From a virus, in IMG/VR virus record IMGVR_UViG_3300020370_000016, positions 1-38,044 of that record: a stretch of 38,044 nucleotides of DNA; one strand, given 5' to 3'. The notes beneath the pieces are model-generated. The model was not told where the DNA came from. It saw only the letters and a program-made list of their open reading frames with translations, and did not search any database. Made by a program: the position numbers and the translations under genes. Every line of letters begins with the position of its first letter. The stretch's first letter is position 1. Shown one piece after another: positions 4,737-34,800 of this stretch.

Positions 4737-4744
4737 TATTTATA
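4737..4744 (-). promoter_or_regulatory. T4-type late promoter TATAAATA before the 179-aa gene
   Basis: A perfect TATAAATA lies on the minus strand. As before gp8, it overlaps the stop codon of the gene in front (GTATAAATAA, end of the 2378-residue fibre) and lies exactly 20 bases before the next ATG. It probably drives the 179-residue gene and the last large fibre. Confidence 0.82.
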
Positions 4745-7700
4745 CCTTAACTTTAGTTGTAGTAAAGCGTCCAGTGAAAGTTGTTGAACTGCTAGCCTGT
4801 GTTGATTTATTTAATGATATAGTTACGTCATCAGCGTTCACTGTAACAGAAGCATCCATTAGGTCATTATCAGATGTAATGGAGTTTGTGATGGTGGCAT
4901 GTGCCACTGTTCCTCCTACTCCACATATAGATGTGACCTCAAGCATATGAACTTTACCGTCATTACTCTCAAGAGTAATAAGTGTCTTAGCACCCTTGTA
5001 TTGTGTTTTGACAAATTGTACGATAGATGCTGAAGTTGAGAATGATGTAATTTCGCCACCCTCTACTCTTGCTGAATCTAATTCAACAAATGTAGCAGTA
5101 GAATCTAGAACTGTTAGGTAACTTGTTGCTCCACCCGCATTGTAAGTTCTGTTGACTTTAAGTCCTGCTTCTGCTCCACTAGAATCTAATGACAAGAACT
5201 GCTTGTCACCATTCATGTTAAAGCGAAGTTCGCTTTGTAAAGCACTGATCTTACCATGAGCAACGTCAGCATTACTCAACGTCTCTACAGTGAATGTTAT
5301 GTCAGTACCAGCTCCACCACCAAGTAAACCACCACCGATAGTGATTACTTCCCCTGCCTCATAGTTACTACCACCAGTATTGATAGTGATGGTTGTGATA
5401 GTACCATTGGCATCAGTTGATAGATCAAAGGTAGCACCAGATCCTGCGAACTCAGATACACCCGCTATGCCAGTGAATGATGATGATACATCATATGCGG
5501 CTGCTGTAGCATTGAATGATCCTGAACTAGCACCTAATGTACCGTCGGTAAAGCTAGCAATAGTACCAGAAACTAGCTGATGCTTCAAGAACATTCCACC
5601 AACTATTTCTGTATCCTTGCTTCCTCTAACTTTTAATAGTGATACACCTTTTCTTTGTACATCTATTGTATCTGTTCCTGTCGTACCATTAAGAGTTAGT
5701 ACTCCATTAACATCAATTATCTTAGTAGTCTTAAGAGTAAATCTATCTTTGTCTATTGATAAAGAATTAAATCCTTCGTTATAAAATTCAAATGTATCTT
5801 CGTCAGAACCAGGTGTAACCTCAGTTAATATGTAAGTATCTTGGTCAACGTCACGTACACCACCAAGTGATACGTAATCAATACCATTGTATCCTTCAAA
5901 CTGCGATGTTGTAGTATTATATCTGATACCACCAAGGTAGGTGTCAGCAGCATCTGGTCTATTGTTTGTGTTACCAACTGGAACTATAAGTGTACCAGTA
6001 GTATCACAAAGAATATTTTTAGCAGGACCAGGTTTGAATGCTATACCTGTACCAGCTACATCAACTATAACAACTTGCTGTACAGAGTCAGTTCCTACAA
6101 TAGCAGGATCAAGAGTTACCTGATCACCCGCTTGATAATCTTTACCACCTGTGTTGACTACAACAGATGTGATAGAGCTGCTTACAACTGTAACATCAAC
6201 AGTACCACCAGATCCTTTTCCAGTTCCTGTTGCTGTAATTGCTACGTTTGTAAACGTACCATCAGTAAATGTAGTACCAGATCCAGTTGTGTTTAGTGTA
6301 ACTAACGATCCAAAACTATTTGATACACCCGCAGCAGTATTCTGTAAAACTGCGTCAGTAATCTTTAATCTACCACCTGACTGTAAATAACCTGAAGCTT
6401 CAAGGTCACCTGTACCCATTGCGATATTGAATACAGTATTACCACCATTATCAATCTTAAAGTTTCTACCAACAAGACCTGTAAGAGTTACTCCACCATT
6501 TCCTTTTGGTGTAAGTGTAATATCTACGTCAGCATCAGTACCAATCGCTGATATAGATGCGTCATTATTAATTTGTAAACCTTTAGCAGATGTACCAGTG
6601 ATGATAGTTGCGTTAGCAACGTCAACTCTTAATACAGGACTAGCAGTTGTTGTAGTGTCACCTACTTGGAAATCGTTAGCTAGATTAAATGATGTACCAT
6701 ATACTGCCTTCTCTATACCCGCTATTGCTATACCAAACTCATCAGGATTTTTGTGGAAGAGACCTGTTGTGAGTGAAGTTGCGAAATTTAAACTTGGAGC
6801 AGCTGCTGTACCATCAGCAAGATTTGCTGTTACATTTGTAAGTGCTACGTTACCTACAGTCTGTGTTAGATCACCTTCTAGAGTTAAGTTACCTGTCTGA
6901 GTGGTGTCACCAGTTACAGTCTGGGTACCTGTGATTGATAATGTATCAGCAGCTTCATCACCAAGAGTCATATTACCCTTGACTATTAAGTTACCATCGG
7001 CAGTGATGTTACCAGTTGTTGTTATATGTCCAAACTCACCTTCTACTTGGAAGACTGTTGCTTGCTTACCAATACTTAATGTACCCTCATATAGGGTTGG
7101 GTCTTTAGTACCAGCTACTTTAAATGCGTCAGATATAAGAGCAGAGTCATGTGTAAACTCAAATCTATCAGAACTTGTTACACCACCTACTGTTAACTGG
7201 AATGGGTTACCAGATGTAGAAGGTCCTGACTCGTTACCAGAAACACGTGGTATTAATGTTTGTCCTACGTTATATCCAAAACCACCATCAGAGACAGTTA
7301 CATCTCTAATAAAACCAACTTTAGTAACTGTATACTGGAATCCAGAACCACTACCACCAACATCTCCCTGATCTACAGAAAGAACATCTCCTACAGTATA
7401 AGGTCCTCCATCAAGACTAATATTAGTTACTTCGTTTATGACAAGTGTATTAGCAGTTAACTGCATCGCAAGACCACTTCCAGTCCCACCTACATCAGCT
7501 TGTCTTGCTTGAATTACATTTCCAATACTATAGTTTTCACCTTGTGCGTTACTAAAGACCTGTGTAATCTGTCCACCTTCGACAGTAACGTCTATTGATA
7601 ATCCTGTACCATAACTTCCTGCTGAACCAGAGTTAATAGTAACACTAGCACCCATGTTAGCATGACTAGAACAGATATAATCTGCTGTCTCTCCTGCTAC

Positions 7701-10700
7701 GCCAGGTCTCAATACAACGTCAGTGTATGCTCCTGCTGAACCAGGTGTTCCTACAGAAACTGAAACGATATCAGTAGCTAGAGTTCCACCATCTTCTCTA
7801 CCCATGGTGATTGGGTGTCCTGCGTTAGAGGAATCACTTTGATCGAAACGATAGGTATTACCCTCGATCATTGTGATAGCTGCCTGTGTACTACCGTCTA
7901 TGACATATACATCATCAGGTGGAGGTGTACCAGGATTTGATATTACTGTGACAGTGAATGTCTGTGTTGGGTTATTATAAACACTTACTGAATCATATTG
8001 TCCGTCTGTATATCCACTTCCTGCGTTTGTTACGTTGACTACCCAACCTGGTACTCTAAAGTCAGCACTAGCAGTCTGTGTTGGTTCTGTACCACCACTT
8101 ACGAATGTAAAGTTAACACCTTGATAAAATCCTGCTGTGTAGGCACTACCATTATTTGTTATATTACCAGTCAGTGACTGGATATTAACTGATGTTTGAG
8201 CATCTCCACCAGCTCCACCAATAAGTGTCAATGTAGGAGCAGTGTCGTAACCAACACCAGGACCAGTTATCTCAATACCAGATAGTCTACCGTTTCTCTT
8301 ACTGAAAGCTGGTGCTAGAACAGCATCGGTAATTGGATTACCACCAGTAATTAAGATTGTAGGAGTAAAGTTATAACCCGCACCAACTTCTGTTATATTG
8401 ACAGCACCGATTGGGAAACCGATAGTTGATGTAGCAGCACCGCCACTACCTGTACTATCTCCTGTAGAAGCTGCTATTGAAACAGTTGGAGCAGATGTAT
8501 ATCCACTACCTCTAGAGTTAATAGCAATATTATTAATAGATCTACCACAATATACTTGAAGAGAAGCAGCACTTGCTCCTAAGTCTTCTGAGAACGTAAT
8601 TGAAGGTAAAGAGTTACCATCATATAATGTACCTTGCTCAGTGATTGTAATTCCTGTAACTACACCAGCTGATGCTGTAAGAGTTGCTTCAGCGTTAACA
8701 CCCTTTAATGAATGTGACTCAGCACTGGTAGCATCAGCAGATGGTGATAGAGATATAGCAGAACCACCTTGTGATGTTGCTAGTCCAAAGTTGTCACCCG
8801 ACTTATTAACAACGTAATAGATTGTACCAGAGTTTAATCCGACACTCTCAGATCCTGAGTTATTGTCATAAACAATTCTTAGGTTGTTAGTAAATGGGTT
8901 GTTAGGAAGAGTAAATGTAGTACCAGATATGTCACTGAACGTATCAAATGTAACCTGATTAGGTTCTTCAATAGTGATAGTTGGTGTACCTGTATATCCA
9001 GTTCCACCGTCACTAATGTCAATTCTGTTAATTACACCATACTGTTCTAAAACTGCTGTGGCATCAGGGTTTGTACTACCCGCAGTAAATGAGATATCAG
9101 GAGGTGAAGTGTAAAGTGAACCAGGATTGGTTACAGTAACATTCTTTAGTGAACCATCATTAGTGTCGATAGTACAAGATGCTGTACCATTGACAGCAGG
9201 GTTTGTATCTAATGTTAGCGTTGATGAACCGCCAGTATATCCATCACCTGTATTAGCAACAGTGATTGCTGATAACTTCTCAGTAGAGATGAGAAGGTTC
9301 GTATCGGATAATAGTCCATAAGCGTTAAATCCACCTCTTCGTTGTTGTTGACCGAGGAAGATATCAATAGAACCAGTCTGAGCAGTGTTGAAACTACCTA
9401 CCTTATTTTGGTCAAAGTAAGCGTTCTCGTTAAATATTACCTCACCGTTAAATGTAATGTCTTCGTTACCCGCAGGGTCGATTAGTAGAGCACCACTTGT
9501 AGTAGAGAAAGTGTTACCCGCTAGTCTTATATTACCTGTCTCAATGTATGCAGGATAGATGTTTGTAGTACCAGTGGAGTCAGATAATCCAATACTGGTT
9601 GCTTGCTGTGATGATGATGTTGACTGGAAGTTAACATTACCTGTCTCTTGGTCAACTAAGAATACTTCACCAACTCTGAAGTCACCCTTCTGGTCAGTAG
9701 ATGAGTAGAATACTCTACCACCATTAGTTTCTACAACTTCATTAGCTTGGTTTGCTAGAGATGTATCATTGGTAAAGTCTTTACCCGCACCAATGTACAT
9801 GAAGTTGTGTGCTGATAGAATCAGTTTACAACCATTACCATCAGAAACAGCACCTTTTAAACCATAGATGTTAGCAGATGCTATAGACTTTAGTTCACAA
9901 CCAAAGGCACTATAGTCAACAAGTGAGATACCTGTAGCAGAGTCAAAGTTATTAGAACGAACATCCTTTGGAGAAGGAGTGTCAGCAAATGTTGTTGATT
10001 GATCTGTACCGTTGAAGTGTACTAGAAGAACTGTATCAGTATCTGTACCATACTCTGAAGATGGTGGTGTAAAAGCTGATGTATATCTTGCTGATAAACC
10101 TGTTGAAAGTCTAACCTCGTCAATCTTACCTGTGAAGAAGTTACCACCAGTTGTTCCATAATCAGAACCAATGTTTAATGGTTTGGTCTTACCATAGTTG
10201 TTAGCATCAGTATAACTACCAACTAGAACACCATCAAGGAATAGTCTTGTAGTTAGTGTACTACTGTTAGTGGGGTTATGACGTGCTACAGCAACGTGAT
10301 GCCAAGTATTAAGTGATAAACTACCACCACTAATATGTTCTGTAGTTCCAGAACCATACTTTAATGTACCACCATTCTGATATAGTCTAGGTGCTACGTC
10401 TGTATCTGATCCAGTACGAAAGTCAAATATAGTGCTAGTACCAGTGGTTGATGTAGGATATATCCAAGCCTCAGCACAGAATTTTGCTGTACCAAATCCA
10501 AAATCTTCTAGAGTTTCAATACTAACAAAGTCACCAGTACCATCAAGTTCTAGTGACGCAGTTCCAAACTTCTTGATTGAAGTATCCAGTCTAGCATCAG
10601 CTTGAGGTGTAAGAGTTTTACCTTCCTCTAATGCTGTAGTAAACTGTCCAGTACCTTTTCCTGATAGGTATATGTAAGTCCCATCATTAGATGCGATAGT

Positions 10701-11876
10701 ACCTTGACCAACTGCTCTTTTGTAGGTAATGATACCACTACCACTATTAGATGTTTTAGCGAATGTAAATGTATTAGCGTCTACCTTTGTACACTCATAG
10801 AAGGCGTTTGCTCCATCTATTGAAGCAAGTACCCAATCACCAGTAACAACTGTGTGAGCAGTGTTTGTGACTGTTACAGTGCCACTACCGAAGGTATATG
10901 AACCAGACTGATATTGATTCTCTAATTCAAATATTTGTTCACTAGCTGAGAACGTACCAGTTGTTCCAGATAGTTTTAATCTTGTTTGTCCAGTACCATG
11001 CTTACCTGTAGCACCCTGTATACCTTTGATACCTTCGTTAGCAAAGTATATAAAAGAGTTCTGCCACTCACAACGAACACCGTTAGTTAAGAGTATACCA
11101 ACTGAGTTGGGTACGATGAATGTTGCTTCGTTGAATAATATTGATGTCTCTAGTGTGTTTGCGTTAGCAATAGCACCATCTAATTTAGCACCACGTCCTG
11201 CGTCCCCTGCGTCAAATCCATAAGGGTCACTAGCAGATGTGGTTGATCCTTTGTTTAATACTGTAACTCTCTGTACATAAGCACTTCTCTCTGAGTTCCA
11301 GTCGTTAGCAGCAACGAAGGCATAACCTGTGTCATTACTACTGTTGTAGAACATGTCCTTAACAGTCAGTTCACAAACAGTGGTGTCACCATTTAGAACG
11401 AAACAGTTAAGATCGTTTGTTGCTGTTGTGGGATATATCTGTGTACTTCTTAATCCTGCACCTCTAACTGTAACACCATCAGGGACTGTTAGGGGAAATT
11501 CTTCTTGATATTCACCAGCTGCTATGTTGACTGTATCTCCAGATGTAGCAGTGGCTAAGGCATATTTAATTGTAAGGAATGGAGTAGAGCTATGCCTACC
11601 TCTATTTGCTCCACCTAATAACGCAGCTGCGTCTGTACCTGTCTTAGCAACGAATAGATGATTACTAGGACCATTAGTAATATCAGACGCTAGCATAGAC
11701 GCAGTAACACTAGCGGTGTTTGGAGCCGCGTTACCTATCTCTACGATAGTACCTGAATTGTTTACAAAGAGTTTTTTGTCCGCAATATTAATTGCGACTT
11801 CCTTATCGACTAGATCACTATTGGTCGGTGTCGCGTTCGGGGTTATCGAGCTCTTTAGTTTGATCCTCGTTGCCAT
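4740..11876 (-). CDS. Giant multidomain tail fibre: beta-helix, LamG-like and cupredoxin-like domains (2378 aa)
   Basis: Starts with a fibre knob motif (MATRIKLKSS..., then KEVAINIADKKLFVNN). Residues about 72-280 form a pectate-lyase-like beta-helix (FLTIKYALATATSGDTVNIA, then VPDGVTVRGAG). Residues about 434-630 form a LamG/concanavalin-like jellyroll (FGTASLELDGTGDFVSI, then LNTWHHVAVAR and FTGKIDEVRLS), a fold that often binds glycans. Next comes a block known from marine phage fibres (HNFMYIGAGKDFTN, then FYSSTDQKGDFRVGEVF). About 14 GxGY beta repeats follow, with a cupredoxin-like domain at about 1319-1414. The C-terminus holds GGIRYNTTTSQFEGYNG and a beta-sandwich beginning VQFVKTQYKGAKTLITLES. 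It is probably a receptor-contacting fibre. ATG is preceded by CTATAA, and the ribosome site is weak. The stop codon lies within the next late promoter. Confidence 0.87.
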   Translation of the reverse strand: MATRIKLKSSITPNATPTNSDLVDKEVAINIADKKLFVNNSGTIVEIGNAAPNTASVTASMLASDITNGPSNHLFVAKTGTDAAALLGGANRGRHSSTPFLTIKYALATATSGDTVNIAAGEYQEEFPLTVPDGVTVRGAGLRSTQIYPTTATNDLNCFVLNGDTTVCELTVKDMFYNSSNDTGYAFVAANDWNSERSAYVQRVTVLNKGSTTSASDPYGFDAGDAGRGAKLDGAIANANTLETSILFNEATFIVPNSVGILLTNGVRCEWQNSFIYFANEGIKGIQGATGKHGTGQTRLKLSGTTGTFSASEQIFELENQYQSGSYTFGSGTVTVTNTAHTVVTGDWVLASIDGANAFYECTKVDANTFTFAKTSNSGSGIITYKRAVGQGTIASNDGTYIYLSGKGTGQFTTALEEGKTLTPQADARLDTSIKKFGTASLELDGTGDFVSIETLEDFGFGTAKFCAEAWIYPTSTTGTSTIFDFRTGSDTDVAPRLYQNGGTLKYGSGTTEHISGGSLSLNTWHHVAVARHNPTNSSTLTTRLFLDGVLVGSYTDANNYGKTKPLNIGSDYGTTGGNFFTGKIDEVRLSTGLSARYTSAFTPPSSEYGTDTDTVLLVHFNGTDQSTTFADTPSPKDVRSNNFDSATGISLVDYSAFGCELKSIASANIYGLKGAVSDGNGCKLILSAHNFMYIGAGKDFTNDTSLANQANEVVETNGGRVFYSSTDQKGDFRVGEVFLVDQETGNVNFQSTSSSQQATSIGLSDSTGTTNIYPAYIETGNIRLAGNTFSTTSGALLIDPAGNEDITFNGEVIFNENAYFDQNKVGSFNTAQTGSIDIFLGQQQRRGGFNAYGLLSDTNLLISTEKLSAITVANTGDGYTGGSSTLTLDTNPAVNGTASCTIDTNDGSLKNVTVTNPGSLYTSPPDISFTAGSTNPDATAVLEQYGVINRIDISDGGTGYTGTPTITIEEPNQVTFDTFSDISGTTFTLPNNPFTNNLRIVYDNNSGSESVGLNSGTIYYVVNKSGDNFGLATSQGGSAISLSPSADATSAESHSLKGVNAEATLTASAGVVTGITITEQGTLYDGNSLPSITFSEDLGASAASLQVYCGRSINNIAINSRGSGYTSAPTVSIAASTGDSTGSGGAATSTIGFPIGAVNITEVGAGYNFTPTILITGGNPITDAVLAPAFSKRNGRLSGIEITGPGVGYDTAPTLTLIGGAGGDAQTSVNIQSLTGNITNNGSAYTAGFYQGVNFTFVSGGTEPTQTASADFRVPGWVVNVTNAGSGYTDGQYDSVSVYNNPTQTFTVTVISNPGTPPPDDVYVIDGSTQAAITMIEGNTYRFDQSDSSNAGHPITMGREDGGTLATDIVSVSVGTPGSAGAYTDVVLRPGVAGETADYICSSHANMGASVTINSGSAGSYGTGLSIDVTVEGGQITQVFSNAQGENYSIGNVIQARQADVGGTGSGLAMQLTANTLVINEVTNISLDGGPYTVGDVLSVDQGDVGGSGSGFQYTVTKVGFIRDVTVSDGGFGYNVGQTLIPRVSGNESGPSTSGNPFQLTVGGVTSSDRFEFTHDSALISDAFKVAGTKDPTLYEGTLSIGKQATVFQVEGEFGHITTTGNITADGNLIVKGNMTLGDEAADTLSITGTQTVTGDTTQTGNLTLEGDLTQTVGNVALTNVTANLADGTAAAPSLNFATSLTTGLFHKNPDEFGIAIAGIEKAVYGTSFNLANDFQVGDTTTTASPVLRVDVANATIITGTSAKGLQINNDASISAIGTDADVDITLTPKGNGGVTLTGLVGRNFKIDNGGNTVFNIAMGTGDLEASGYLQSGGRLKITDAVLQNTAAGVSNSFGSLVTLNTTGSGTTFTDGTFTNVAITATGTGKGSGGTVDVTVVSSSITSVVVNTGGKDYQAGDQVTLDPAIVGTDSVQQVVIVDVAGTGIAFKPGPAKNILCDTTGTLIVPVGNTNNRPDAADTYLGGIRYNTTTSQFEGYNGIDYVSLGGVRDVDQDTYILTEVTPGSDEDTFEFYNEGFNSLSIDKDRFTLKTTKIIDVNGVLTLNGTTGTDTIDVQRKGVSLLKVRGSKDTEIVGGMFLKHQLVSGTIASFTDGTLGASSGSFNATAAAYDVSSSFTGIAGVSEFAGSGATFDLSTDANGTITTITINTGGSNYEAGEVITIGGGLLGGGAGTDITFTVETLSNADVAHGKISALQSELRFNMNGDKQFLSLDSSGAEAGLKVNRTYNAGGATSYLTVLDSTATFVELDSARVEGGEITSFSTSASIVQFVKTQYKGAKTLITLESNDGKVHMLEVTSICGVGGTVAHATITNSITSDNDLMDASVTVNADDVTISLNKSTQASSSTTFTGRFTTTKVKV
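7630..7920 (-). other. Cupredoxin-like domain with intact type-1 copper ligand pattern, inside the 2378-aa fibre
   Basis: Residues about 1319-1414 of the fibre read YVIDGSTQAAITMIEGNTYR, then FDQSDSSNAGHPI, then GTPGSAGAYTDVVL, and finish with DYICSSHANMG. The His of GHP and the C-x2-H-x2-M group correspond to the four ligands of blue-copper proteins (His, Cys, His, Met). It is flanked by GxGY beta repeats. Seen: the ligand pattern and strand order. Inferred: copper binding. It could instead be a purely structural cupredoxin fold. Confidence 0.72.
9985..10575 (-). other. LamG/concanavalin-like jellyroll in the 2378-aa fibre
   Basis: Residues about 434-630 show the canonical order: FGTASLELDGTGDFV, then AEAWIYPTST, then LNTWHHVAVARH, then RLFLDGVLVGSY, then GKIDEVRLSTGLSARY, then VLLVHFNG. 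This fold often binds carbohydrate, which fits host surface recognition. Confidence 0.82.
11035..11662 (-). other. Pectate-lyase-like beta-helix in the 2378-aa fibre
   Basis: Residues about 72-280 begin VAKTGTDAAALL..STPFLTIKYALATA, followed by GDTVNIAAGEY and VPDGVTVRGAGLRST, the usual opening of right-handed beta-helix proteins. No clear catalytic residues could be identified, so a fibre or tailspike role is more likely than a lyase. Confidence 0.7.
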
Positions 11877-22823: not shown

Positions 22824-22831
22824 TATTTATA
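22824..22831 (-). promoter_or_regulatory. T4-type late promoter TATAAATA before gp8
   Basis: The minus strand reads TATAAATA, identical to the T4 late promoter consensus recognised by a gp55-type sigma factor with the sliding clamp. It overlaps the TAA stop of the gp7 homologue (GTATAAATAA) and lies exactly 20 bases before the gp8 ATG, giving a leader of about 15 bases if transcription starts at the usual distance. It would drive gp8, the DUF4815 gene and the 98-residue gene. Confidence 0.82.
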
Positions 22832-25800
22832 CTGTATAAACACGGATAGTTGGAAGGATCTCCATTGTACCCGTTGCTGTCAAAGATACTGGTAAAGTTA
22901 TAGTGAAGTTAGTATCATTCACACGAGTGATCTTATACGTTCCATTGAGTGAATTTGCTGGCCAATTTCCAATAGCAGATGTAAATCTGATGAATCTCTC
23001 CATACCAGTTTGGAGATAATGATTGGCAGCCATTGTGATTACACAATTAGTTCCAGTACTATTGAAGTTTCCAGATGTAGGACCATTAGCATAACCAAAT
23101 CCAAGAGCAGTTCCTGTATTCTTGAATCCTCTACCGTTTGTAGTAACAGTAAATGTCTCTGCTGAGTAATCTACAGAACCATATAAGATTCTTTCACAAC
23201 CCCATGTTGATGTTGAGGCATTCCAGAAAGGAATTAACAACTCACCGTTAGATGGGAATCCAACACCATTACTATAATATGCGTCAAGAACAGGAATAGT
23301 AGCAGTCTGCTGACCAATAGAACCAGTTAACTGTGTAGTGTATAGGAATGTACCATTAGATACTGCTCTGTCTCTCTGAGTCCTCTCTAAAGCGAGTGGA
23401 TGATATGGTGTGACAGAAGGAGGAGTATTATAATTAGAACCACCTTGTAGGTTTCTAATGCCAATAACTCTACCACTACCTTGTTCGATTTCTGTCTCAG
23501 CAAATGCTCCAGATCCACCTCCACCACTAAAGATTAGGAATGGAGCAACCTCATAGTTAGAACCTGAATCAATAATACTGACTTGAACAACTACTCCGTT
23601 TACAACAGTAGCAGTGAATACAGCAACATTAGGTCTTAGACCTGTATATTCATATGTATCTAAGGAGGAGGAACTCGCTATAGTAGCAAGTCGTCTATCA
23701 TCTCCTTCAGACTGTACCTGTATGATGTCGCCAGGATCAAGGGCAGAATATGTATCCTCTATCACAATATCTAGATCAGAACCAGTATAGATGTAAATTA
23801 ATACCTCACTACCAGCTCTAGGTGCTTCACTAAACTCAAGAATAGAACCATCTAGTGTATATGATACTTCAGGTTCCTGATATACACCGTTCAAGAACAT
23901 GATAAGGTTGTTAGCAGGAATAACTTGAGTAGAATCTGATTCTAGTGAGAATGGTTGATCATTCTTCTTAAGAATAAATGTCTTCTTCGTACCGTTCATG
24001 AATGGTGCGATAGAGTCCATATCTTGTAACTGTCCCACATAGAAACAGTAGAAGTCCATATTACCTTTCGGTGCTTCAGTAAAGTTGATTGTGGATGGTG
24101 TACCAGAGTAACTATATGATGAACCCAATTCCTGTATGTGTGAGTTCAAGAATAATAAGAACCTGTCATTAGCAGGAAGTGTATATCCTGATCCACCTAT
24201 AGTAGCAGCGAACGCAGTTGTTGTTCCGTTAAATGTAACTGTCTCTACTTCAACTTGGAAGGAGTTGACTACTGTACCACCAACATCAGCAGCATTTACA
24301 CCAAGTACGTCTGTATTCTTATATCCGTCTCCACCACTGACTAAAGTTACACTTGTCACAGCACCTGTAGTCCTTGCTATAGGAGTATTGAGTGTGCCAG
24401 CTGCTGTAGAAGCAGATCCACCAGTCAGTGACAATGTAGGTGTAGAACTATATCCAGCTCCTGTCTCTTGTACAACTATTCCTTCTAAGTGTCTACCTAC
24501 GATAGCAGATGCTGTAGCAGTTGTAGTTATTGTGTCGGCAGCATTCGCAATAATCTCAACAGTGACATCATCATATCCAAATCCACCTTCAGCAACCGTA
24601 ATACCAGTGACAGCCCCACCACCCACAGTAGCGGTAGCAGAAGCATTAAACCCAGTCCTTGAAGTGATGCGAACTGTTGGTGTGTTATTATATCCAACTC
24701 CTCCTGCGATGACTCCGATTGATTTGACATAACCTCTTTGTGCTAATACTGGTGCAAATGATCCTGCTGTGGTTGGTGATCCACCTGATATCTGAACTGT
24801 AGGAGCAGTCTCATAACCATCACCATGATTACCTACTGTTCTAGTTATACCAGAGAAGTTACCCTGATTCAACGCTGTATATGCTAGATCCATCAAGGTA
24901 TCAACAGTTGCTTGTACAGCTGTACATGCTTCTCTAACTCCATAACCTTGCTTCACAGCGTTAGCAGTAGCAGTCAAGAATGTATGTGTATAGTTTCCAC
25001 CAACTGTAATAGCATTGCTGAGAGATGATGCGTATACATGTGTGGAAGCATTCGTAGCAGCAATACCAACGTTAACTGTAATCCTGTCAATAGAAGAACG
25101 TACAATACCTAATGGTTGATCATATGCCTGATCTTTCTTCTGTTTTAATCCATTTGATGTAGCAGATACAAATGTATGTGTTGTATTATTTGTAGATGGT
25201 ACAAAGTCTAATACTCTTACTTTGAATGTGTCAGTAGTGACATTTCTAATTCTCAACCATTTACCTGATACTGGATCAGTAGCACGTGGATATGTGTGGT
25301 TAGTATTATCACCATCTTCAGCACATGTAAATGTCAATGAGTCATCGTCAAACTTAACGTAGTCACCCTTTCTCATAGAGTGTCCAGCTACAGTAACTAC
25401 CATGTCACCGTCAGCAGGAGTGTATACAGCGTTGGTAACTGTGTGGTTGATTATATCTGTTCTTGGGTATGAGTGAGTAGAACTGCTACTTCCTGCTATA
25501 CCAACGTTGACTGTAATAGTTGTGGCTGATACCGCTGTTATTGCTTCAGCAACACCTGATGATGGGTCACTTGCTCTAGGATATGGATGATTAGTTGCGT
25601 GGTTGTCAGCATCACAAGTAAATGTAACTGATCCATCAGCAAAGGTCACTGTATTAGATGTGGTCAAACTATGTGTACCTATCTCGACTTCCATGACACC
25701 TGTGAGTGGATCATAGGTTGTTCCTGTCGCTGCTGTGAATGTTCCTGACGCTCCACCACCCGCTGTGATACCATTTGTAGTACCAGATACGAATGTATGA

Positions 25801-28800
25801 GTTCCAACAGCAGCATCACATGTGAATGTAATACCACCATCAGCAATCTTAAGACTTGTGCCTCTAACGTGTAGATTATATGCTACGACTGCCTTGAATA
25901 TGTGAGCAGTTACGTTAGTAGATGGAGCTGTGTTTAATACTTGTACTTTAAATGTATTTCTTGTTACGTCTGTAATAGGTTGCCATAGTTCACTGATAGG
26001 ATCACTGCCTCTAGGATAAGCATGATCACTAGCATGACTGTCTTCATCACATGTGAATATAATTGAGTTGTCATCTATAATAATTTCATCTGTAGGTGTC
26101 AAACCATGATCCTCACAGGTTACAGTCATGATACCTGTAGTAGGATTGTAGTCAGCACTGTCTATAGTGAGTGTTCTTTCAGATCTTAGTCCATGAGGTA
26201 GGACTACAGCACCTGTTGTAGCAGATTGGAAGGTATGAGTATGTCCACCACCACTCTGTACAGCGTCAGTAGCAACATAACCTGGTTTCCATCTGTGAGT
26301 AGATGTGTTTGTAGATGGTGTAGAACTTAATGACTGAATAGTTATAGATGTGTCTGTCACAGCAGTAATTGCTAGAGCAGCTCCACTAGCAGGGTCACTA
26401 GGTCTTGGATATGAGTGGTCTGTCTGATAGAAGTCCATCAAACACTGATATACAAGAGAGTTATCTGTGATTGTAATAGAATCACCAACCTTGAGGATGT
26501 GATTACCGATAGTCAACTCAACAAGACCTGTAACTGGGTCGTAGTTTGAACCTGTTACAGTGTGATTGACTAAAGGACTAGGTCCTACGTTGACTGTGAT
26601 TGTATTAGTATCTTTAGCAATAATTTTTAGTGCCTTATCATAGAATGGATCTTTACCAAATCTAGGATACATCTTAGTAGCATTATTACCATCCATTGTA
26701 CATTTGAATCCTAATGATTCAGGTCTGAACATAATCTCTTCACCAATCTCCATGCTATGTGAACCAATGTTCACTGTCATAGAACCTGTATTAGCATTGT
26801 AGGTAGCCGCAGATACATTGAACTGTGTGTTATAGACTTCCATGTCCATGTCACCAGTAGCAGGGTTATAAGTAGCACCTGTGATCTGATAATTTACAGT
26901 AGGAGACTCTCCAACGTACAATGTAATTGTAGTGTTTGTTTTCGCAGTGATAGGAAGGGATTTGCGGTATGCCCAGTCTGTAGATCTAGGATATTGATGG
27001 TGTGTAACACTACCATCTTGAGCACACTTGAATGTCAATGACATATCATCAAGTTTAACTCTTGTTCCTACCTCTAGACTATGAGATCCTATTGTTATCT
27101 CTACTTGTCCTGATGTCGCAGTGTATACAGCGTTAGTTACGTTGTACTGAGTAGCATCAGTGCTCTGATATGCTGTAATTGTAGGATCTTTATACTGTGT
27201 CTTAGTTGTAAGGTTAAGATGTGAGTATGTCTCGAATGATTCTTGCTGTATTGCCTTCAATACCATCTGACGTGCTTCTTCAAACACATAGAGTGTCTCT
27301 GACTCCTCACCTTGTACATGATTACCTACAAAGTACATGTTGAGTGTGTCATATAGAGTATGGTTACCACCGTATGCCACGTTAGTAGCAACTGCGTTTA
27401 GTACATCTCTTGTATCAGACTTACATTGTCCATCACCTAAACCAGGTGCGTTGAATCCAGTAGGAGCAGTCCTTGTAAAGGCACTCATTGTGTTAGTATC
27501 AACTGCCACCTCTACAATATTCATTAGAGTGTGTATAGTCGCTCTAGCACTAGCACACTTATTATCAGATCTAGTAATACCTCCATCATACTTCTGTGTC
27601 TCACCATGATCACCAACTACAGTCACCGCTTCATTAGCAATAACTTGTCTGGCTATCTTGTCAGCCTCACGGAAGGCATAAATGGTATGAATCTCTTCAC
27701 CTGCTACATGAGCACCATCAACATAGTACTTGGCAGCATCATATACTTCACTGTTACCACCAAACTTAGCATTGATAGCAACTGCCTCTAATACATCTCT
27801 TACATCATCAACACAGTCCTCATCATTACCTGTAGGTTCTACAAATAGAGTTGGTTCTGTCTTAGTGACATGATTCATTAAGTCAGTATTGATAGCAGTA
27901 ATAACAATATCAATAAGCGTAGATATAGCGGACTTAGCACTAGCACAACCGTCGTAGATGTAAGTAACGTCTTCAAAGTACTGTTCATAACCGTGATCTC
28001 CTGCGATTGATACCGCTTCATTTAAAATAATCTTGTCTATCAGACCTTTCATCTGATTGGTAGCAGCGATTGTCTGCTGTTCTTCACCTTGTATTACACT
28101 TCCAGAACTATATGCTGATGTGTAGTAGTAGGCAGCATCGTATACTTTATTATTAGCACCAAATAGTAAGTTGAAAGCAACCGCTTCCAATATATCCATC
28201 AAGTCATCTCTACAATCCTGTTCTGTATATCCTTGAGCATGTGTATAACCAGGATAGTCAATAGTCTTGAATAGGTAGTATGCTTCCCAGACAATAAAGT
28301 CTTTGTTTGCCATAATCAAGTTATAGGCATCAAAGTGTCTCTTGTTAGCAATAGTATATGGTATATCAGCATGCATCCTATCGACTGCTTCTCTAGAGAT
28401 GAAGTCTTTGTTCATTAAGATAAGGTTAGCTGCGTCTGCTACCTTGTTGTCTGTAGGTGTACCATACTTATTCATCAGTCCCACAGCAATGTCTGCTATG
28501 ACTCCTGCGTTGTTGTCAATCAGTGTTCTAGCATCAGCATATTTGTTATCGGTGACAAAAGTAGCACTATCGAGGACATTTGTTACAACTATGTTACCAG
28601 TTGCCCCCGATCCGTCTGATAATTTGTTAGTGAATGAAACTCCATTGTATGTACCAGGTGTATAGCCCGTACCTTGATATACTCCATCAGTTGTATTCAG
28701 GGCGGTGATAACATCTCCAAACTGATCTAACTGGAAGTTTCCAGAGATATCAGATCTCTTGAAGTACATTACGATAACTGTTGAGTTCCTCATAGGAGCT

Positions 28801-31800
28801 TCTAAGAATGTTATCGTACTACCTGATAGAGTGTATGATGCAGGGTTCTGTACAATACCATTGATAGTAACCATCAACTGATTTTTACTTGTAGGTGTTG
28901 TTGCTGTACCTCTAGTTCTTAACTGGAAGTTTGTATTGAAGTCATCAAACTCTACAGTTAGTTGATGCTGTGAATCTGTTGATAGTGCTGAAATGTCTAC
29001 AGTAGTATCGGCAACACCAACATTGATTGTTACATCATTACCATTTACAGCAGTGATTGCTAATGGTGTATTATACGCAGGGTCAGTTGAACGTGGATAT
29101 GCGTGAGTAGTAGCATGGTTGTCACCCGCACAAGTAAAGGTAAACGCACCTAATCCCAATGTAATTGTATGACTGGTAGTCATTGTATTACCAGAAACCG
29201 TGAATGTTAACTCACCACTTGTAGGATTATATGTCGCAGTAGAAGGTGTGCCACTAAATCCATTACTACCTGTAATTGGTAAGGCACTTACAAATATATG
29301 AGTAGATCCACCGAATGTGGTAGATAATTTAAAGTTATCGTCATCTACACGAGTAACATAGTATTGTCCTACAGGTAAACCACCTAGAGTTACACCATCT
29401 CTAATATTAGGATAGTTACCTACATTCTGAGTTGGAACGTTGCCTGGATTGTCAATCGCATCCCAAACAATTTGAGCTAATACAGTTATAGCAGATTGTA
29501 CATCAGCACATCCACCAGGATCTTGTGTGATTGTGACATCAGTGAATGGTAATAGGTTTTGAATTGCTTGTATGGCTAGATCTCTAGCATACTGTATGGC
29601 AGCTATAGTCTCAACTGTCTCACCAACGATATAGTCTATAACACCACCAACAATATACGTCTCAGCAGCATCTACAGAGAATTTGTTACCACCATAGCGT
29701 AAATCATTACACCATGCGATAACTATAAGTCTTAAGTCTCTAGCACATGTGTCTGCGTTGTAATCTGGTTTAGTTCCATCAGTTAAGTTAGGATAACTCT
29801 GCTCTAACCATGTAATAGTGGTAGAGATGATGTAATCTATGTTACCTAATATCAAATTACGAGCATCTTGGAATCTATCACCCTGTACAAGATAGGATAC
29901 TTTCTGATTAGATAATAATCCATGATTAGTAAAAGTAATAGTCTCATTTGATATGTCTACAACATTAGTATCTGTACCATCAAAAGTAATTGTCCTCTGA
30001 TTGATAGGATCTATCTTATCAACAACAGCAGATAGAATCTTTCTAACGTCAAGTAACTGTTTACCAACAACCTGAATATTAGTTGGGACTGTTGCTGTAT
30101 AATCTGGTTTACCAAGTACAAAGTTCTCGATACGAGCTAACTTACCTGTGTTAGACGCAGATGGTTTAGGTACGAAGAAGGTTGTACCATTGAATGACTT
30201 ATTCTCGTCACCAAATCTTTGCTCCCACCAATCATTAGCATCTGGATTGGAAGGATTATAATATGATCTACGTTGATATCTCTTGAATGCTGCTTGTGAT
30301 ACAACCTGTGTACCTAATACTCTAAATCCAGCTGGATGAGCAGAGTTCTTGAATTGATTCTTCCATTGATTAACATTAATAGGAGAATTTACAACATAGG
30401 AGAACTCTTGGTATCTGTCACTATCATAAAGACGCTGATCGTTAAGGTCAAGTATACCAGTAGTACGCTTAAACTCAGCAGTAGCAGTGGCGATAGGTGA
30501 TACAGTAAAGTTAGCGATTGATCTGTCAAAGTCATGTATTTCTCCAAAAGCATTAGACTGTAAACCGAAGACTGGTTGATTAAGAGCAAACTCTCCTACC
30601 TGTACCTCAACTGATAGCACTCTACCTTTAGAATCCCATGCTTTTACTATACCCTGAGCAGAGAATGAATCTACAGATGAACCTTGATATACCTTCTCAC
30701 CAATAGCAAATGAAGCAGGAGTCATTGATACAGTGATATCATCTCCTAAGTCTATAGTAGTTAAGTTAAATGTTGAAGTACCACCAGTACCAATAGAAGG
30801 AGGACTTGTTATTGTTATAGATGATCCTGCCATAGCATTTGCTAGTGTTGTTGCTAACTTAAGCTGGTTGCTAGCAAGACCATTAGCAAGTGTAGGTGCT
30901 ATAGCGTAGTATGTCTGATTTTCTACTAAAGGAGCTGGTAATGTACCATCAATCTCTATTAAGTCTACTTTTGTACCTAGAGGTATCTTAGTATCGTATG
31001 GGAAGTTAAGTGTACTATTAGATTGTAGAGGAGTAAATGAATGTGTGATTCTTGCTTGTACAGCAGGAGTAGATGAATAACCTTTACCTGCATTTGCTAT
31101 TGTAATTGCCTGAATAACTTCGTTGTCAATAATAGCATCCATAACTGCACCGCTTCCACCTCCACCAATGAGTTCGATGGTTGGTTTGGTAACGAAGGAT
31201 CCACCTCCGTTTGTAACAGTGAAGAAGTCAACGATTTGAGTTCGTGTGAGCTGTAAATTATAGTTTGTATTAACGCTTGGTTTAAGGGTTCTATCATGAC
31301 TGTAGTTGTACGTGATATTATCTCCACCAAGACTGATGATCTTACCTAGATCACTAGACTTGAGTAGTATAGAAGCACCATTACCAGTACCTTGCTTAAT
31401 TGTAATAATAGGAGGATTTTGGAATCTAGTTCCTGCGTTCTCAATAACTACTGAACTTACAGTCTCATCTATAATCTCAGCACGTAATACAGCGTCTATA
31501 CCTGTACCACCAGAGATCTGAACTTCAGGAGCAGATAAGAAACCTGAACCAGAGTTAGATACAACAACCTGATCAATAGAAGCATCTATGGTTGTACCTG
31601 TGACTGCCTTACGTACATAGTCGAGAGAGTCAACTCTAAGAACAAAGTTATCCGCTGAACTACCACCTGTAATATCCTCACCACGAACAGTGATAAGGTC
31701 ACCTAGTGAATAGTTTGCTCCACCCGCTAATACGTTAGCAGTCTGTACGTCTTGTGTAGACGCAGAAATGATAACTTGAATTGATGCCCCACTACCACCT

Positions 31801-34800
31801 GTAGGAGCTACAGATTCCTGTGATACTGTGTATGTACCTGGCGTAAAGTTAGCAGATGTGTTCTGACTATTGACGCTAAGGGTTAATACACCACCGTAGT
31901 ATGGGTCGTCAATGTATATAGTTGGTGCTGTACGGTAATTACTACCTCCATTACCGTTTATAGCGATATTACTGATAGTTCCTATCTCAGGACCTGAGGA
32001 AGGAACGATAGCAGCAACATTTGCTTGCTCACCTGATACTGCTGTAATAACTGCTTGGTTTGATCCTGCGAATATCTTATTAGTAGCAGCTATAGCAGAA
32101 GTGAACATAATGAAACCACGAGTAGTAGCACCCACTAGGTTATTACGTAATGGTTGTACTCTGAGTGTAGATGTATTAGGATTCCAACTGATTACCTTAC
32201 CTCTAGCAGTGTCACCGTCTAGAACTAACTTAGATGCTATAACGTCACCTGTATTGAAGTCACCAAATATCTCATCTAGTGTTAAATCTACAAAGTCTGG
32301 CATAGAACAGACAACAGCAGGAGGATTAGCACCATCATATCCAATACCCGCATCAATAACAGCTACGTCTTCTAGTTTACCTGAGATAGTAGCAAATGCT
32401 GTAGCACCACCACCTGACCTCTCCACACTTGTGAATTTGGGGAATGTAGAATAGTTTCTACCTGGATCACCAATGTTGATACTAGCAATACCACCTGAAG
32501 GGAATATAGAGTTAGTAGAATATGAGATCTCATTAGCAGATGTATAATTATTTTCTGGTTCTCTAGCAAGAATGAACTCAATCGTAGTAACAGTAGGAAT
32601 TGCTGTGACTGTGTTTGCTCCTAAGAATGGATCATTAACTACACTCAGATAGCTTCCTGTGATTGCTCCATTGATATCAAAGTAGAATAATGTGCCAGGT
32701 ACATCATCTAATGATATGGTGATTGATATTTGTTCTCCTGTAACTGGATCATTTTCTGCTCCAACAATATTTTTATATGTGAATACGTTAGTATTCTCTT
32801 TATCAAAGGTAAACTCTAGTCTCTTACCAACGTTAGATGAATCTGTAGTATTAAACTTGTATAGATGACCATTGATAAGATCTAACTTAGGTTCTTTGAC
32901 ATATACTACACATGCTGTAGTAATAGCAGTATCAGTTATAATACCAACTGCTTTCTTGAACTGGAATCTTCTTCCTGTGCTTATACCTGTAACTGTGAAC
33001 GTACCATCATAGTCAACTGGGTTAGTTCCTGTGATGATAACCTCATTACCTATGGTTAGTTGATGAGCAGCTGACCCTCTAGCAGTAAACTCTTGATTTA
33101 TCTTAGTAGGAGTGATGTAGAATCCATTGACACCTCCAATGTCGCTAGTGACAACTGGATCTAACTGTTCATTGTTATAATATCCACTACCTTCCTTTGT
33201 TAGAGTAACCGATGTTACCTCACCGCTGTTACCAACGACAATAGTAAACTCAGCACCTTCACCTGATGTAGCAGAACTATTAACAAGTGGAACATTAGTA
33301 TATGTGCCAGGTGTACCACCACTACCAGCTAACATTGTCCATTCATCTTGTACTAGACCACCAGTCTTTTTAACATTACCAATGTTTACAGAGAAGTCTT
33401 GACCTGTACCACCAATACTGTTGATACTAGCAGATAATATATCTTCATTCTTGTAATTCTTACCTGTATTCTGTATAGAGACGGATGTGACTGTATTTCC
33501 ACTTACAGTGATATTAGCAGAAGCATTTTGTCCTGAACCGCCAGTTAGAGGTATATTTGAGTAACTACCATCTGTAAGTCCTGTACCGCCAGTAATAGTG
33601 ATATTAGCTTGTAATATTCTACCAGGTGAACTAATGATGAAATTAGTCAAATCGAAGTATTTAAAGTGATATTTGTCGTTTATAATCTTTACATCCAACT
33701 CACGAGTGTATTGGTTGTTTCCAATCGCAATATCAATCGTATCGCCAAGTTTTAGGAAATGGGCAGTGCTTGTAGTGATAGTTCCCGTAATTATGTCTGT
33801 AGTCGAGTTTACTCCAGAAACAATCGCAGAAGTTCCCGATCCAGAGATTTTAGACACTCTAGCGGAAACACCGCTTCCTCCAGTGCCTACTTCGTCAAAT
33901 ATCAGTCTATCGTTAACTTTATAGTTAAAACCTGGACCTTCGATCAAATACTGATCTAATCCACTTGAGAAGTACCTATTTGTCGCAGATACGAATAATG
34001 AGTCAACAGAACCACCTTGGATGCTTGGGAAGAAGTCAAAGTACCCAATACCGACAGTTACGAAGCCAATGAAGGAATTATCGTTTTCTAAGACAATAGG
34101 AGTCGTAGAATCTTCCATAGCGAGTATATACTCGATTGGATTGCCTTTATTCTTTCTTCTTACTAATGCTGTGTCTGTAGCAACATATGGACGCTTATAA
34201 CGAACTGCGTCTTCTGTAAAGTTTCTTTGGAGTCCATTTCCCTTCCAGTTGACTGAATCTGCCTGAGAGTAGTAATTAGGACCTACAAAGTAAGGAAACT
34301 TCGGATTTCCAGTCGTTCCGTCTAATGCTGTGAAATATGCGTATATTCCAGTTGGATATTCGGGAGTTACGCAGAATCGACCATTATACTGATCTAAGTC
34401 GCCTAATCCTTCAATATATTCGTAATCTTCAATATATGTTCCCATCTTATCGGTTTGTGCCAAATCATTACCAACTAACGCATCTCTTTCCGTTCTGATG
34501 CGATATGAGCTGATCATTTGCTTTATTTCATTATATGGGTTCTTATTCTCTCTATCTGTGTATCCGTAAGGTCCGTAGATGGGATGTCCGTCAAATGACC
34601 ATCCTAAGATTGGTGAATGCCTTGTTGGGTTTAATTCTGCGTATGTTGTGTCACTTACGTTATCTCCAAGTAAGAAACGCAACTTTTTAGGATTATATAA
34701 GTATCCGTACTCTCCACCATAGATTCCGAAGTTAGCACCCTTAATTGATACACCATTATTACTATCTGCTATTTTAGGTGATACAAACAGTGGATCTCCA

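Follow-up and report, generated by a model that had tools for sequence, protein, structure and literature searches.

The window analysed here, a 38,044-base virus contig (IMG/VR record IMGVR_UViG_3300020370_000016), encodes a large structural protein in which a GHP motif is followed by C-x2-H-x2-M, and this locus raises the question of whether a phage virion protein contains a blue-copper site. The initial annotation had marked about aa 1319-1416 of this protein as a cupredoxin-like domain with a complete copper ligand set in a phage tail fibre. The features considered are as follows.

4740-11876, minus strand: host protein of the domain, 2378 aa, a baseplate/tail structural protein similar to P-HM1 gp7 (PHM1_095), assigned by PHROG match and identity to PHM1_095
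10104-10544 (converted from amino acid positions), minus strand: LamG-like lectin-type domain, aa 445-591 of the 2378-aa protein (PF13385, E 3e-20)
7635-7907, minus strand: cupredoxin-like domain, aa 1324-1414 of the 2378-aa protein (hhalign; profile match E 1.2e-38, the window sequence being one row of that profile)
7815-7817, minus strand: H1354, putative first ligand, in GHP (invariant in 78 of 78 domains)
7671-7673, minus strand: C1402, putative ligand and the domain's only Cys (invariant in 78 of 78)
7662-7664, minus strand: H1405, putative ligand (invariant in 78 of 78)
7653-7655, minus strand: M1408, putative axial ligand (invariant in 78 of 78)
32682-32897, minus strand: second, ligand-free copy of the domain, in a 4940-aa gp7-like ORF at 22827-37649 (profile E 2.9e-9)

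The first 1312 residues of the 2378-aa protein matched PHROG 32294, a baseplate wedge subunit in PHROGs, and aa 1-1310 were 48% identical to PHM1_095 of Prochlorococcus phage P-HM1, annotated as gp7 baseplate wedge initiator. Past aa 1310, no further BLAST alignment between the two proteins was found. Despite this, the cupredoxin-like domain was present at the matching place in both (aa 1324-1414 in the window and about aa 1334-1424 in P-HM1). The order and lengths of the window genes were also those of P-HM1 (gp7, gp8, VrlC, small genes, a second gp7, a structural protein and YapH), and a search at the DNA level gave no match to known phages. The best reading is that the window virus is a marine T4-like cyanophage with the domain built into its large baseplate/tail protein. 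The name tail fibre fared less well for this ORF, given the PHROGs assignment and the syntenic gp7 gene; it is still a possible name, and proteins bearing relatives of the domain alone were often annotated as tail fibres. Tail fibre is an imprecise name here, and 'baseplate or tail structural protein' is the safer label.

GNTYRFDQSDSSNAGHP was present in the domain, and the full His-Cys-His-Met set that had been claimed was found in its typical order (H1354, C1402, H1405 and M1408), with the short Cys-His-Met loop of cupredoxins. When the window domain was aligned with 77 non-redundant relatives from profile searches (78 rows, the relatives being 31-95% identical to the window), 7 of the 94 well-filled columns were invariant: S1350, H1354, G1379, C1402, H1405, M1408 and G1409. 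The four putative ligands thus made up four of the seven invariant columns, a pattern that exceeds chance (probability 1.1e-5), with the first His partly selected for because the pattern used to search viral contigs contained it. The C-H-M triplet was absent from that pattern, and bacterial-genome contigs were scanned with a pattern without any ligand. The C-x2-H-x2-M spacing of the window (2,2) was kept in 77 of the 78 domains, and a single Cys per domain was likewise found in 77 of 78. The nearest relative of the window domain, 95% identical, was located in a 189-kb viral contig. Among close relatives dN/dS was about 0.09-0.31, and the ligand codons showed synonymous changes only (CAC/CAT and TGT/TGC).

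A profile of the window-domain family (A3) was compared by hhalign with seven PF00127 plastocyanin-type proteins that came from the same bacterial or phage sequences, and the match was obtained at P 5.8e-5 (probability 66%). None of 300 column shuffles reached the score of 31.5, the best of them giving 17.5 and the reversed control 11.7. Two Bacteroidetes proteins were also matched by A3 (E about 1.6e-5); in the one that was checked, PF00127 was above its cut-off at the matched place, and A3 aligned with the segment at P 1.6e-8. A sister phage family, recognizable by 'ASGHPFYIKT...YYYICQ.H.GM.G', matched A3 at P 3.9e-19 and the PF00127 set at P 1.3e-7. When an enlarged profile of this sister family was searched against PDB, 48 distinct sequences were found at E <= 0.1, all of them blue-copper or CuA, with plastocyanin 2plt the best match (1.6e-5), and 41 of 64 sister-family members had a PF00127 match at E <= 0.1. 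Among the PDB matches listed for the sister-family profiles, smaller and enlarged, all were copper proteins. The first His of the domain family was placed by hhalign on the ligand His of the plastocyanin-type proteins; with HMMER, the local sister-family alignment displaces it by two residues.

The window domain itself gave no match in Pfam, including PF00127 at its curated cut-off, and no family for it was found in NCBIfam; weak PF00127 matches were obtained for 11 of the 78 relatives (best E 0.0048). A3 against PDB returned a mixture that included pseudoazurin and plastocyanin, none significant, and a single plastocyanin aligned with the profile over 17 residues round Cys-His and no more. 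Directly following the first His, the window family has Pro and the plastocyanin-type proteins have Asn, which was counted against the cupredoxin/copper reading. Single-sequence and small-profile searches of PDB gave few matches, mainly antibody and other Ig domains. The term cupredoxin-like was nevertheless upheld by the hhalign match to plastocyanin-type proteins and by the chain through the sister family, and the proposed search of cupredoxin profiles was answered in part, by that match and by the 48 blue-copper or CuA sequences of the sister profile but not at the PF00127 cut-off. On these comparisons the window domain is almost certainly homologous to cupredoxins (blue-copper proteins), and its family appears to be related to PF00127 without being filed as a member.

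The AlphaFold2 model of the window domain was confident (pLDDT 91, pTM 0.81) and all beta except for one short helix turn, with strands flanking the C-x2-H-x2-M loop. Foldseek found nothing in PDB for this model at E <= 0.001, and the best 50 PDB fold matches were weak and mostly Ig-like (TM by query 0.28-0.46). There was no cupredoxin among these 50, which was also counted against the cupredoxin/copper reading. The structure prediction that had been suggested therefore bore out a confident all-beta domain, while the fold matches stayed weak and mostly Ig-like. Among predicted viral proteins, many cyanophage structural proteins were matched (43 at E <= 0.001). Weak fold matches were seen as well to 'beta-sandwich proteins' of giant viruses (BFVD A0A481YVH3 and A0A481Z6J5, Marseillevirus LCMAC201 and Pithovirus LCPAC302, respectively). 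The sister family was modelled as a control (pLDDT 94), and the first 19 PDB fold matches of its model were all cupredoxin-type, including rusticyanin, amicyanin, AcoP, plastocyanin and a CuA chimera (prob 1.00, TM by query 0.48-0.57, E 1.2e-3 to 5e-3). The fold search was thus able to detect cupredoxins. Since the sister model finds them and the window model does not, the window subfamily may have drifted, or its longer middle region may blur the match.

Ligand states were scored over 193 non-redundant copies spanning the site, and 181 were HCHM, three HCHQ and nine other (two YCYY, two KDH-, and one each of HSAM, YAYY, HCNM, YSAM and YSQM). Gln as the axial ligand is known from stellacyanin and is an accepted type-1 variation. 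Two or more ligands were lost in eight copies compared to 1.5 expected under independence and a maximum of six in 2000 shuffles, a count to be read with the uncertain alignment of decayed sites; part of the excess may be shared ancestry. In the second copy in the window (32682-32897) the first His is replaced by Lys, and C-x2-H-x2-M is absent. This decayed copy is also present in P-HM1, and directly behind it lies an intact one that the window does not have. In three loci (L228, L233 and L246), Tyr occupied three ligand positions (GYPF/GYQI...YYYC or YYYA...LYSGYGN), a pattern resembling the substitution of an aromatic cluster for the metal site. The 189-kb contig of the nearest relative encodes a 2078-aa protein with two more copies, HNNY, which has no Cys or second His, and the Gln-axial HCHQ.

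With one family member as tblastn query, the domain was found in at least 307 of 50,697 phage records; for scale, a homologue of the window gp8 was found in 526. The hosts of these phages were nearly all Synechococcus, Prochlorococcus, Pelagibacter or Methylophilales, and nearly all of the phages were marine. The sister family was found in 98 phage records, one of them from an Actinomycetia phage. All 16 whole phage records sampled, which were picked because they matched, carried one copy or more, with a maximum of six matches. In eight of the 16 phages a free protein of the plastocyanin type, scoring above the PF00127 cut-off, was encoded too. The 189-kb contig (locus L159, G011:C3:110907-111155) likewise encodes a free plastocyanin-type protein. 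The domain family was found also in several hundred viral contigs, and it occurs across differently named virion proteins. Intact copies were present in giant ORFs of marine Bacteroidetes (L110, 5494 aa; L122, 13,623 aa; L128, 5164 aa), and the 5494-aa ORF also carries DUF285, FG-GAP and Ig-like repeats. Sister-family domains were seen in tandem arrays of at least three per viral protein (L221, L264 and L247) and, in phages S-H9-1 and S-BM3 (H136 and H151), in proteins annotated as subtilisin-like serine protease or peptidase S8. The module is best read as mobile, moving between virion proteins of marine phages and surface-type proteins of marine Bacteroidetes.

These findings point, with moderate confidence, to a divergent mobile cupredoxin module of virion proteins that has a type-1-like copper site and is probably a stabilised adhesion or display domain. 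It is probable that the domain binds a metal, and copper is more likely than not its native metal. The grounds for the reading as a whole are the invariance of the four ligands in 78 domains, the solitary Cys, the purifying selection, the joint loss of ligands, the Gln-axial copies, the plastocyanin-type homology, both direct and via the sister family, and the spread over many virion proteins and giant Bacteroidetes proteins. Most likely, a single copper ion would sit in a type-1-like site among the strands of the beta-sandwich, bound by His, Cys, His and Met, and the sandwich pinned by the metal would serve as an adhesion or display module. Free copper is scarce in the host cytoplasm, in which virion proteins fold, and this was counted against the copper reading; copper loading could occur after lysis, in seawater. 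A mainly structural or display role is plausible but tentative, from the many differently named virion proteins, the giant surface-type proteins and the copies that keep the fold without the site. Electron transfer is unlikely because no redox partner is evident.

Three other explanations were weighed against the copper module. A real metal site might be a purely structural staple that takes any soft metal, Zn or Cu(I), at cytoplasmic folding, so that copper chemistry would be irrelevant. The location of the domain in structural proteins, the folding of such proteins in the cytoplasm, and the persistence of copies with Tyr at three ligand positions (YCYY and YAYY), which implies a fold independent of the site, are all consistent with this, but the full Cys-His-His-Met set and the amicyanin-type spacing are kept, and an invariant axial Met is unexpected for a generic staple; we consider it unlikely. 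The metal-free alternative, an ordinary Ig-like beta-sandwich whose conserved residues serve the fold, would account for the mostly Ig-like Foldseek matches of the window model and for the antibody and other Ig domains in the first PDB sequence searches. Those fold matches were weak, however, with none at E <= 0.001; the sequence homology points in register to blue-copper proteins, ligand losses are correlated and each domain has one solitary Cys, which leaves this explanation very improbable.

The initial annotation had offered stabilisation of the tip, sensing of copper or redox state, and contact with a host metal-uptake receptor as possible roles. The site could also be used in infection, by contact with a copper-uptake or surface receptor of the host or by redox or copper sensing at the cell surface, as a copper 'Ferrojan horse'. 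Baseplate and fibre proteins carrying the domain could meet the cell, the phage matches are nearly all marine, and an analogous idea has been put forward for tail fibres with iron (PMC11705849). The spread of the same module over phages of unrelated hosts, differently named virion proteins and Bacteroidetes giants is nevertheless ill-suited to one specific receptor, and receptor contact via copper, though possible, is hard to square with this host range. Such a role is accordingly rated improbable, and the stabilised adhesion or display module with a type-1-like copper site is preferred.

Compared to PF00127 (Copper-bind: plastocyanin, amicyanin, pseudoazurin), the window domain has the same His...Cys-x2-His-x2-Met order, the same strand order round the ligand loop and statistically supported homology. 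It differs in being below the Pfam cut-off and within a 2378-aa virion protein rather than a free secreted electron carrier, and in its Pro after the first His, longer middle region and weak PDB fold match. Amicyanin (for example PDB 1aac) has the shortest ligand loop, C-x2-H-x2-M, the same as that of the window domain, and it ranked near the top in the fold search with the sister model; it is, in contrast, a free periplasmic electron-transfer protein, and an electron-transfer partner for the window domain is neither known nor likely. Cyanophage petE (plastocyanin) is likewise a phage-encoded plastocyanin-type protein, but its products are small and free (110-131 aa) instead of being domains of a virion protein, and they coexist with the virion domain in several genomes. 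Ig-like domains of phage structural proteins resemble the family as mobile beta-sandwich modules over many virion proteins, but they are without a conserved metal site, whereas the sequence homology of the window domain is to cupredoxins. In the tail fibres of T4 (gp37) and Alteromonas phage R22Y, HxH motifs bind or are proposed to bind iron (PMC11705849). These are also bound or proposed metals in phage adhesion proteins of marine phages, but the fold and ligands are different and iron lies on a trimer axis, compared to a single-chain predicted His-Cys-His-Met site in the window.

Cupredoxins as such are already known. The open-access literature searched yielded no description of a virion cupredoxin, nor of a widespread unannotated cupredoxin family within virion proteins, which is weak evidence as it covers open-access text alone; one literature candidate for a viral cupredoxin concerned a viral nitrite reductase instead. 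The findings suggest that many ocean viruses may carry copper sites. A bolder reading would give many marine phages genuine type-1 copper centres within the virion, for attachment or infection rather than metabolism; these would form a class of virion metalloprotein for which no description was found and a viral copper-binding route in the ocean. This reading is speculative and rather unlikely at present. Since neither Pfam nor NCBIfam has an entry for the family, naming it would give an annotation to many virion proteins now called 'hypothetical', and the naturally occurring copies without ligands or with axial Gln could serve directly as controls. Should copper be bound, the particles of abundant marine phages would be copper proteins, in parallel to the hypothesis of iron in tail fibres, and copper would become a testable factor for phage stability and adsorption.
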